The notes under the pieces: generated by a model
Seen by the model: only the letters and a program-made list of their open reading frames with translations
Told to the model about the DNA's origin: nothing
The model's database searches: none
Position numbers and translations under genes: made by a program
Shown here: one piece after another, positions 50,935-54,130 of the stretch
Numbering within the stretch: position 1 is the first letter of the stretch
How the letters are laid out: each line of letters begins with the position of its first letter
From: Candidatus Zixiibacteriota bacterium
GTDB taxonomy: Bacteria > Zixibacteria > MSB-5A5 > GN15 > FEB-12
Assembly: GCA_040753875.1 (NCBI GenBank)
Contig: JBFMDV010000036.1
Location: forward strand, 1-64,000
DNA length: 64,000 bases
Direction of reading: 5' to 3'

Positions 50935-51435
50935 GTGAACATTCGCGACATTCGTACGCTCTACGACTACAACTATTGGGCGACACGACAGATCCTGGCA
51001 GCCGCCGCGCACGTGAGCTCGGAGCAATTTGTAGCCGCAACCGCCCATAGCTTCGGCAGCCTGCGCGGGACACTCGTGCATATCCTGGACTCCGAGTGCG
51101 GCTGGCGTATGCTGTGTCAACACCAGACCCTCAAATCCTTCGGGGCGATGGATGAAGGTGATTTCCCAACCCTCGACGTATTGCAGCAGCGATGGAATGA
51201 GGAAGAACGCGCCATGCGGGACTACCTCGCCGGCCTCACCGACAACGATCTGACCGGTTACGTGCGATACACGACGGACGAGGGGGACAAGCGGGAACGG
51301 CTGCTGTGGCATTGCCTGCTGCATGTCGTCAACCACGGAACACATCACCGGAGCGATGCCGCAGCAATCCTGAGGGAGTACGGTCACCCACCGGAAGGCT
51401 TGGATTTCACGGCCTTCTTGAACGAACAGCGCTGA
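50935..51435 (+). CDS. DinB-family protein
   Basis: The 166-residue four-helix protein starts at GTG with a strong SD (AAAGGAGGT). The DinB metal triad His residues appear in GTLVHILDSECGW and LLHVVNHGTHHRSDAAAILREYG. The family includes bacillithiol transferases and damage-induced proteins; the substrate cannot be told. It lies in a repeat-rich accessory region. Confidence 0.88.
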   Translation: MNIRDIRTLYDYNYWATRQILAAAAHVSSEQFVAATAHSFGSLRGTLVHILDSECGWRMLCQHQTLKSFGAMDEGDFPTLDVLQQRWNEEERAMRDYLAGLTDNDLTGYVRYTTDEGDKRERLLWHCLLHVVNHGTHHRSDAAAILREYGHPPEGLDFTAFLNEQR

Positions 51436-51465
51436 GGGTTATGTCGCAAATCGGTCGCCTGTACA

Positions 51466-51638
51466 CGGTTCGAGCGAAGTCGAGAACCGAACCATGGCTA
51501 ATCGCGTCTCGTCTGCGCTCGACGCGACGAAAACGACGGGGCTGTACCACCTTCAGTTCGAGCCCTCTTGCGTCGGTTCGAGCGAAGTCGAGAACCGAAC
51601 CAAGGCTGAACGCGTCTCGTCTGCGCTCGACGCGACGA
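51466..51638. repeat. Dispersed GGTTCGAGCGAAG hairpin repeat, two units
   Basis: Units start at 51466 and 51572, each with CGAGCGAAGTCGAGA and TCTCGTCTGCGCTCGA arms. An extra CAGTTCGAGCCCTCTTGCGT spacer lies between. Same family as 16112-16360. Confidence 0.85.
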
Positions 51639-51661
51639 AAGGAACAATGTGACTTGTAGCG

Positions 51662-51973
51662 ATGAAACGACCTTGTGTATACATTCTGAAGTGCGTTGAC
51701 GGCCTGTACTATACTGGGTCTACAACCAACCTCGAGCAGCGATTGCGTCAGCATGAAGCCGGCGTCGCTGACTCATTTACAGCTCGGCGCCTACCCGTTG
51801 AGCTTGTGTACTGCCTGGAGTTTCAGACAATTCGAGAGGCAGCAGAAGCCGAGAAAAGGATCAAAGACTGGTCACGAGCCAAAAAGGAAGCTCTAATGAG
51901 AAATGACACTGACGCCTTGAAGGCCCTTTCTGCTTGTAAGAACGCGTCACACTATCAGCGTTCCAAGAGTTAG
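51662..51973 (+). CDS. GIY-YIG nuclease superfamily protein
   Basis: The 103-residue single-domain protein is of the UPF0213/YhbQ type. The GIY-YIG equivalents are VYILKCVDGLYYTGST, followed by NLEQRLRQHEAG (Arg and His) and the late Glu in EAAEAEKRIKDWSRAKKEAL. Such stand-alone proteins are common and often sit in mobile or repeat-rich DNA. It is flanked on both sides by the dispersed hairpin repeat. Confidence 0.9.
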   Translation: MKRPCVYILKCVDGLYYTGSTTNLEQRLRQHEAGVADSFTARRLPVELVYCLEFQTIREAAEAEKRIKDWSRAKKEALMRNDTDALKALSACKNASHYQRSKS

Positions 51974-51990
51974 AAGGGGTTGGCCAAGGG

Positions 51991-52255
51991 TTCGCGTCTC
52001 GTCTGCGCTCGACGCGACGAGAACAACGCGCCCGCCCCGTCGTCAGTTCGAGCCCTCTTGCGTCGGTCCGAGCCCCCTGCGTCGGTTCGAGCGAAGACGA
52101 GAACCGGACCAAGGTTGATCGCGTCTCGACTGCGCTCGACGCGACGAAAGGAACGGGGCAGACCCGCTGTCGGTTCGAGCCCTCTTGCGTCGGTTCGAGC
52201 ACCCCCGTCGTCGGTTCGAGCGTCACCGTCGGTTCGAGCGAAGTCGAGAACCGAA
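51991..52255. repeat. Degenerate cluster of the dispersed hairpin repeat
   Basis: A half unit (51991-52020), a full unit (about 52081-52149) and several short CGTCGGTTCGAGC units near 52041, 52060, 52169, 52188, 52209 and 52228. The short units lack the second arm, as if expanded or eroded. With the neighbouring terminator it fills the 366-base gap before mreB. Confidence 0.8.
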
Positions 52256-52288
52256 CTTCATACCACGCTTTTTGTCGCAGTACCAAAC

Positions 52289-52314
52289 AAAAAAACAGGC
52301 GCCGAGGGCGCCTG
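52289..52314 (-). terminator. Rho-independent terminator of mreB
   Basis: On the minus strand CAGGCGCC and GGCGCCTG pair perfectly over a 3-base loop, followed by a run of seven T. Confidence 0.9.
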
Positions 52315-53544: not shown

Positions 53545-53573
53545 AAAAAAAACGGGGCCCGCTTTCGGGCCCC
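53545..53573 (-). terminator. Rho-independent terminator of the arsR micro-operon
   Basis: On the minus strand GGGGCCCG-AAAG-CGGGCCCC followed by G and a run of eight T, 25 bases after the micro-ORF stop. Confidence 0.92.
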
Positions 53574-53597
53574 AGGTGTTTGAATCTCTCAAGCCTT

Positions 53598-53672
53598 TTA
53601 ACGTCCTGCCTGGGACGAACATTGCGAGCCGGAGCAGCAGTGGGCTACCCGGGGAATCTGATACCGGATCAT
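53598..53672 (-). CDS. 24-residue Cys-rich micro-ORF coupled to arsR
   Basis: The ATG at 53672 overlaps the arsR stop as ATGA, with SD GGAGG about 7 bases upstream inside the arsR 3' end. The peptide begins MIRYQIPRVAHCCSGSQC and ends in Arg, with three Cys and one His in eight residues (HCCSGSQC). The stop TAA is followed by a strong terminator. The combination of coupling, SD and terminator supports real translation. No known family is recognised. It could be a metal- or metalloid-binding peptide or a regulatory peptide. Confidence 0.55.
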   Translation of the reverse strand: MIRYQIPRVAHCCSGSQCSSQAGR

Positions 53673-54076
53673 GATTGACCTCCTCTCGTCTTGACAGGTT
53701 CAGCTTTGCTTGTCTTATCTGCAGTGCGTCTCGACGCGTTTTGTTTTGTCTTCCTGCCTGATTCCGTCAGGTGGATCGGGACTTTGACACAACAGCAGGG
53801 GAAACAGGCCATAAGTTCGACACAGACATCGCTCAGATGTTCGGCGTTCAACTCGTAGCGGACATGCTGCCCCTTGCGGGTTCGTTTCACCAGCCTGGCC
53901 GAAAGAAGCCCCTGCAGGTGACGGGTAATGGTGGGCTGGGAAAGGTCGAAGAAGTCGACGATCTCCCCTACTGTCCGGGGTTTCGCCTCCAGCATAAGGA
54001 GAATCTTGAGGCGGGTATTGTCGGCCATCGCCTTGAAAGCGGCCGGAAGCCGGGTATTGTCGCAGGTCTTTTTCAT
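53669..54076 (-). CDS. ArsR/SmtB-family transcriptional repressor
   Basis: The 135-residue protein has a winged helix with recognition segment TVGEIVDFFDLSQPTITRHLQGLLSARLV and wing TRKGQHVRYEL. A Cys cluster after the wing (DVCVELMACFPCCC) could be the metal or metalloid sensor site. A basic, Lys/Arg-rich tail of about 35 residues follows. The promoter contains a palindromic operator over the -10 element, so the gene is probably autorepressed. Inducer unknown. Confidence 0.9.
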   Translation of the reverse strand: MKKTCDNTRLPAAFKAMADNTRLKILLMLEAKPRTVGEIVDFFDLSQPTITRHLQGLLSARLVKRTRKGQHVRYELNAEHLSDVCVELMACFPCCCVKVPIHLTESGRKTKQNASRRTADKTSKAEPVKTRGGQS

Positions 54077-54086
54077 ACGTTCATAA

Positions 54087-54104
54087 ACATATACGCATAT
54101 ATGT
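54087..54104. promoter_or_regulatory. Candidate ArsR operator
   Basis: ACATATA-CGCA-TATATGT is a perfect 7-bp inverted repeat of the AT-rich type bound by ArsR/SmtB repressors. It overlaps the -10 box of the arsR promoter. Confidence 0.7.
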
Positions 54105-54130
54105 ATATATTGGCTTCAGGTTTACGTCAA
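54102..54130 (-). promoter_or_regulatory. Promoter of arsR
   Basis: TTGACG (54125-54130), a 17-base spacer and TATACA (54102-54107). The predicted start is about 20 bases before the ATG, with no clear SD in that short leader. Confidence 0.75.

Follow-up and report, generated by a model that had tools for sequence, protein, structure and literature searches.

What does a small repressor operon make besides its repressor? The question is raised by a locus on contig JBFMDV010000036.1 of Candidatus Zixiibacteriota bacterium, of which the first 64,000 nucleotides (hereafter, the window) were analyzed. A micro-operon on the minus strand (53545–54130, from promoter-like site to terminator) forms a transcript unit of about 0.6 kb with arsR, a micro-ORF, and an intrinsic terminator. 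A preliminary description proposed that this arrangement could be a minimal metal(loid) response unit, in which a 24-residue peptide was the only evident output besides the repressor.

The arsR micro-operon in the window

The operon parts listed in that description were all present. The repressor gene, arsR1 (53669–54076, minus strand), encodes 135 amino acids, and its stop codon overlaps the start of the micro-ORF as ATGA. The micro-ORF (53598–53672, minus strand; 24 aa, MIRYQIPRVAHCCSGSQCSSQAGR) has its own Shine-Dalgarno sequence, AGGAGG, 6 nt upstream of the start (53679–53684, minus strand), and matched the profile of its family at E = 1.1e-13 in its own genome. A terminator scan placed an intrinsic terminator at 53545–53574 (minus strand), with a stem at 53574–53553 of nine pairs, eight of them G-C, followed by a T run. 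The promoter-like site (54102–54130, minus strand) consists of TTGACG (54130–54125) and TATACA (54107–54102) separated by 17 nt; this is a plausible promoter, but its description as strong is unconfirmed because a consensus promoter scan of the window did not report the pair.

The repressor belongs to the ArsR/SmtB family by its ArsR-type HTH domain (PF01022, E = 1.6e-12, Pfam; NF033788, 78.2 bits versus a cut-off of 55, NCBIfam), and it carries the previously noted CFPCCC cluster at residues 91–96, after the last helix. It scored below the cut-off of the SdpR autorepressor subfamily (NF033789, 78.7 versus 100 bits). The palindrome noted over the -10 was likewise found (ACATATATGCGTATATGT, ACATATA-TGCG-TATATGT, 54104–54087, minus strand), where it overlaps the -10-like TATACA. 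Its core, ATATNCGTATAT, recurred in 14 out of 16 arsR1 loci (L065 and L058 fail); no more than 1% of shuffles reached this level, the core having been chosen by eye from the same 16 loci. This conserved palindrome within the operon's own promoter is a putative ArsR site. Judged by sequence comparison, both its recurrence in arsR1 loci and the conservation of the peptide with third-position variation (see below) exceed chance.

Close relatives of arsR1 (E ≤ 1e-20) were found in 25 of the 132 Zixibacteria genomes, and the arsR genes near the peptide in this phylum are of two kinds. Loci with the second kind, arsR2 (e.g., L111, L115, and L128), often contain an unannotated Cys-rich ORF of about 55–85 aa (TETDxGxRIxVxGK...CC) between arsR2 and the peptide; the one member that was searched had no Pfam or NCBIfam match. 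In another genome (G126; L026/L061), an arsM-like gene directly follows arsR, and the peptide is absent. Elsewhere in the window (51400–52300), several overlapping ORFs contain recurring stretches resembling RAKSRTEPRLIASRLRSTRRK, which suggests short repeats interspersed in the DNA.

A conserved micropeptide within and beyond Zixibacteria

Conservation of the peptide in related arsR loci had been proposed as a check on the preliminary description, and it was borne out. Using a 16-peptide profile searched in 386 genomes including this phylum, the peptide, M-x-R-[FY]-x-x-P-R-x-A-H-C-(C-x-G-[AS] or x-x-G-C), was identified at E < 1e-6 in 48 of the 132 Zixibacteria genomes, two of which carry two copies each, with a further decayed copy in G053. 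At a loose threshold (E ≤ 1), the profile matched 216 of the 386 genomes, although most of the weak matches were judged to be chance and were not used. A scan of close relatives yielded eight loci (Zixibacteria/Zixiibacteriota or GN15, one labeled "uncultured bacterium"), all with the peptide after arsR. Linkage to arsR in Zixibacteria was near complete: an upstream arsR on the same strand was present in 49 of 51 peptide loci examined (the arsR match in L135 being weak, E = 2e-6), and the other two were a locus (L106) with no more than 210 bases available upstream and a decayed copy (L139). L013 encodes an in-frame fusion of ArsR and the peptide, and arsM comes after the peptide in three loci (G127, G128, and G043). 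The conserved core comprises residues 1–16 (MIRYQIPRVAHCCSGS). The CC-x4-C pattern that had been proposed for searching does not describe the family: the last Cys of the window peptide (HCCSGSQC) is not shared, and what is conserved is PRxAHC with CxG[AS] or xxGC after it.

The peptide is constrained at the amino acid level. Across 95 loci (L257 was missed by the script and left out), the mean pairwise difference over codons 2–16 was 0.287, 0.259, and 0.598 at codon positions 1, 2, and 3, respectively, and Arg8 was encoded by all six Arg codons. This third-position excess leaves the proposal of a coding micro-ORF standing. At least four contiguous Shine-Dalgarno bases precede the peptide in 93 of the 95 loci, and ATG, GTG, TTG, or CTG occupies the aligned start position in 88. 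On these comparisons, the micro-ORF is a real gene, and its peptide is almost certainly translated and conserved for its sequence. A chance ORF was ruled out by the codon-position test and the profile matches in Zixibacteria, and a dispersed repeat by the first pattern used, which occurred in 11 of 132 genomes, a single time in each. A conserved C-terminal SRAG, considered as an arrest motif, was dropped because L011 and L013 stop before it, yet the nucleotides stay conserved.

Searches outside the phylum, based on a profile of 55 peptides, extended the family to seven phylum-level groups, comprising Zixibacteria and six others. The peptide was present in all seven genomes of G310's phylum, in 29 of 247 in that of G300 (E ≤ 1e-3), 8 of 327 in that of G213 (E ≤ 1e-5), 4 of 12 in that of G374, 1 of 4 in that of G240, and 1 of 3 in that of G203. 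The majority motif is HCxxGC, with tandem Cys limited to the HCC class. A tblastn search of plasmids gave a single partial match at chance level.

ArsR linkage did not extend beyond Zixibacteria. No arsR was found at 26 of 27 outside-phylum loci tested (the sole exception being in G213), nor at any of seven further loci. Neighbors there include genes for a PDZ and Metal_resist protein, a geranylgeranyl-reductase-family protein, hemerythrin, rubrerythrin, a GRDB-like protein, and a multicopper oxidase, as well as Bax-inhibitor and DUF445-like genes (named by eye), an upstream RNase P RNA, and others. A recurring set was seen in L177, L180, L183, and L188, consisting of rubrerythrin, the geranylgeranyl-reductase family, PDZ/Metal_resist, the micropeptide, and a hemerythrin or GRDB-like gene. 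Because neighborhoods outside Zixibacteria are mixed, a metal role is not general across the family.

These results support the original proposal in part. A metal(loid)-responsive unit remains reasonable in Zixibacteria given the coupled, conserved coding peptide, the ArsR linkage, and the three arsM loci. The idea of a self-contained ArsR unit, however, covers too little, since 26 of the 27 outside loci lack arsR and the unit also includes a conserved RNA structure whose distance is fixed (see below). In its strict form, an ArsR-specific metal-binding peptide for which RNA structure is irrelevant, the proposal draws on the linkage in 49 of 51 Zixibacteria loci and is very improbable in view of the outside loci and of the covariation of the RNA.

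Known systems resemble the locus only in part. ArsR/SmtB metalloregulator operons share the small wHTH repressor with a C-terminal Cys cluster, the palindromic operator over the -10, and, in three loci, arsM next door; in contrast to them, the output here consists of a micropeptide and an RNA structure, and efflux or methylase genes are usually absent next to it. The peptide had no match in NCBIfam or PHROGs, nor, for the window peptide, in Pfam, although very short queries are hard for such tools. Literature searches found nothing on a small protein beside ArsR in Zixibacteria or on arsR with a small ORF and a pseudoknot, and the peptide strings PRVAHC, PRTAHC, PRIAHC, RPVSHC, and PVSHCKEGC were unmatched. 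The micro-ORF is thus, as far as sequence comparison can place it, a member of an unrecorded family of tiny stand-alone bacterial genes.

An RNA pseudoknot at a fixed distance from the start codon

The 3′ end of the micro-ORF overlaps an H-type pseudoknot (53617–53590, minus strand; S1 CGUCC/GGACG, S2 CAGGC/GCUUG, with an A-rich last loop). The preliminary description overlooked this element. The window pairs were read from the sequence, and relatives define the consensus GUCC-YGGGCA-NGAC-nn-(U)AAA-C-UGCCC, where S1 is GUC/GAC, extended on both sides, and S2 forms between the S1 loop and the downstream strand. The pairs covary. In 54 sequences, 39 double-change cells were counted versus 19.4 ± 3.4 after shuffling (reached in 0 of 500 shuffles), even with L099 and L051 included, whose differing loop lengths count against the fold. 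The corresponding values were 22 versus 9.3 ± 2.5 for 33 sequences outside the phylum and 38 versus 16.4 ± 3.0 for the window plus 41 outside sequences, where S2 was 93% paired (L256, L259–L263, and loci without the pseudoknot were left out of this set of 42). Slid controls were 22%–44% paired versus 77% for the true pairing. With partners slid by +2, the covariation score was still fair (0.131 versus 0.138 for 33 sequences, 0.110 versus 0.155 for 54, and 0.124 versus 0.211 for 42), but paired cells dropped to 37%–41%. At S2 position 2, 25 of the 42 sequences have G-C and 16 have A-U; at the outer pair of the S1 core, 37 have G-C, 4 have A-U, and 1 has C-G. RNAalifold recovered S2 unprompted. 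The predicted fold is thus very probably real. No Rfam 15 family matched the element above its gathering cut-off in 25 sources, where the only hits elsewhere were RNase P RNA and tRNAs.

The pseudoknot and the peptide travel together, with exceptions. A pseudoknot search in Zixibacteria returned 42 sites in 40 of the 132 genomes, every one at a peptide locus (backward control, 0), and the same search in G300's phylum returned 32 sites in 27 of the 247 genomes (backward control, 1). The peptide accompanies 22 of these 32 sites (L236 weakly), a variant (MRWMFPHATHCSxCG or near it) occurs at six, five of them in one family and one (G559) in another, and one site lies at a contig edge (L246). At the remaining three (L248–L250), all second copies from a single genus, the pseudoknot is unchanged, but the only ORF is a short and different one (MAHLCSSPP or MAHPR). 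Conversely, structure is absent or weak at 4 of the 95 peptide loci (L056, L057, L060, and L163; one more locus is decayed). Given these four loci and L248–L250, neither part strictly needs the other. The three sites without the canonical peptide could point to a dual-function or trans-acting small RNA, in which the pseudoknot and 3′ end do the work and the peptide is secondary, as could the conservation of the structure's sequence beyond what pairing needs. This reading is distinctly unlikely, as the peptide is conserved at the amino acid level with free synonymous change and is retained where an unrelated hairpin replaces the pseudoknot or structure is lost.

The distance between start codon and structure is fixed. 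Measured from the start-codon A to the first S1 core base, it is 56 nt in 79 of the 95 loci (76 by script and 3 by eye: L058, L064, and L099), 55 nt in four, and 54 nt in one. In six others, a hairpin (-17 to -23 kcal/mol) starting at nt 56–58 takes the place of the pseudoknot; five of these are in one family and one is in another phylum, and two reach only z = -1.9 and -2.3. As a hairpin can substitute at the same start, place appears to matter more than sequence. The intervening spacer is unconstrained (differences of 0.68, 0.68, and 0.52 at the three positions of codons 17–19, with the coding pattern absent), whereas constraint in the pseudoknot stretch extends to every codon position, and the stop codon moves between codon 17 and codon 32 while the spacing holds. 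The constant distance over this spacer and the hairpin swap suggest a roadblock to a ribosome at codons 15–16.

Luteovirus-type frameshift pseudoknots have a compact H-type fold, a short first loop, an A-rich last loop, and a similar spacer to the decoding site. The present element is like them in fold, loops, and spacer; unlike them, no recoding product is seen here. Pseudoknot-stimulated recoding (frameshifting, readthrough, or selenocysteine insertion) would fit a spacer of this length, which is within the range for such stimulators, but the variable stop and a spacer with no codon pattern, and hence no conserved product beyond the site, rule it out as the main reading and make it extremely improbable overall.

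What the predicted pause may serve

A conserved nascent peptide, an RNA structure at a fixed distance, and a terminator form the classic layout of a leader peptide acting in cis, where nascent-chain arrest or a tandem-Cys attenuator would sense a metal(loid) or Cys-tRNA and switch the pseudoknot or terminator for a downstream gene. In keeping with this layout, arsM follows in G127, G128, and G043, a GRDB-like gene follows in L159, L183, and L187 (Pfam for L183), and some arsR1 loci allow, by eye, an alternative pairing of the S2 3′ strand. In several such loci (L006 835–997, L009 3398–3563, L017 1885–2050, L018 1893–2059, and L024 1326–1476, minus strand), a GGCCCAUyCGAC stretch immediately past the pseudoknot can pair with sequence on the far side of the terminator hairpin, excluding S2; by eye, this pairing seems to covary. 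Against a leader, the next downstream ORF is co-directional in only 22 of 47 Zixibacteria loci and 4 of 7 others (naive calls of ORFs of at least 120 aa in loci of at least 4 kb), no consistent downstream gene was found across the peptide loci inspected, and most members have HCxxGC rather than the tandem Cys codons, or other single-codon run, of an attenuator. Terminator-like sites lie within 147 nt past the structure in 55 of the 95 loci versus 5 of 95 shuffled (29 of 51 in Zixibacteria and 26 of 44 elsewhere). Given the mixed orientation of the downstream genes and the terminators after the structure, we conclude that the micro-ORF is not the leader of a downstream gene, and we keep the leader only as an unlikely alternative.

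Two motifs in Brewer et al. (2021, PMC8632094) illustrate the difference. The odc1 motif also joins an RNA pseudoknot to a conserved short peptide, an 11-residue uORF product, but there the RNA lies mostly before the uORF and the main ORF starts beside it, whereas here the RNA follows the peptide and a main ORF is absent. The uORFC-8-2 attenuator of the same paper (PMC8632094) likewise combines RNA stems and a terminator with a short ORF whose Cys codons are conserved, but it has tandem Cys codons and precedes cysS; here, tandem Cys is confined to the HCC class and a target gene is absent.

The pause might instead affect only its own transcript, for example through decay or autoregulation of the ArsR operon. 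The fixed distance even where translation stops earlier and the position of the micro-ORF as last cistron behind arsR are consistent with such control, but in many outside-phylum loci it is apparently a separate gene, which renders this explanation quite improbable.

The explanation that we tentatively prefer, and that as a whole is possible rather than probable, is a micropeptide gene that stands alone and on which the RNA makes the ribosome pause as soon as the His-Cys motif is complete, with the peptide acting in trans and ArsR control acquired in Zixibacteria. The product would be basic, with roughly 16 essential residues that include His-Cys and a second Cys. As the roadblock (the pseudoknot, or a hairpin in some lineages) begins 8 nt past codon 16, a ribosome at about codons 15–16 would meet it when the His-Cys motif has just been made, and translation would probably, though by no means certainly, pause there. 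Such a pause may serve the making, loading, or handing over of the peptide, not the control of a following gene. In trans, the peptide would most likely act as a thiol/imidazole ligand or a signal in soft-metal(loid) or redox stress. Our best guess for its role is metal(loid) or thiol stress, perhaps through metal binding, because of its ligands, its association with ArsR in one phylum, and the metal or redox genes beside some other loci. In Zixibacteria, the gene would have become the last cistron of autoregulated ArsR operons, and the window gene would be induced once ArsR is released by its putative metal(loid).

In a more speculative and rather improbable variant, the micro-gene itself would be a widespread sensor of metal(loid)s or thiols that works at the level of translation. 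The roadblock would hold the ribosome with the nascent HC(C)xxG(C) just past the peptidyl-transferase center, and soft metal(loid) binding to the nascent chain would decide between release and arrest, whatever gene lies downstream.

Genes this short escape annotation. Here, the peptide and the RNA are each backed by strong comparative evidence, the two lines being independent of one another and spanning seven phylum-level groups. The fixed spacing leads to one sharp prediction, a ribosome pause at codons 15–17. If the preferred explanation is true, the family would consist of bacterial genes of a new kind, with product and pausing signal made as a single unit, and ArsR operons would gain an unsuspected output.
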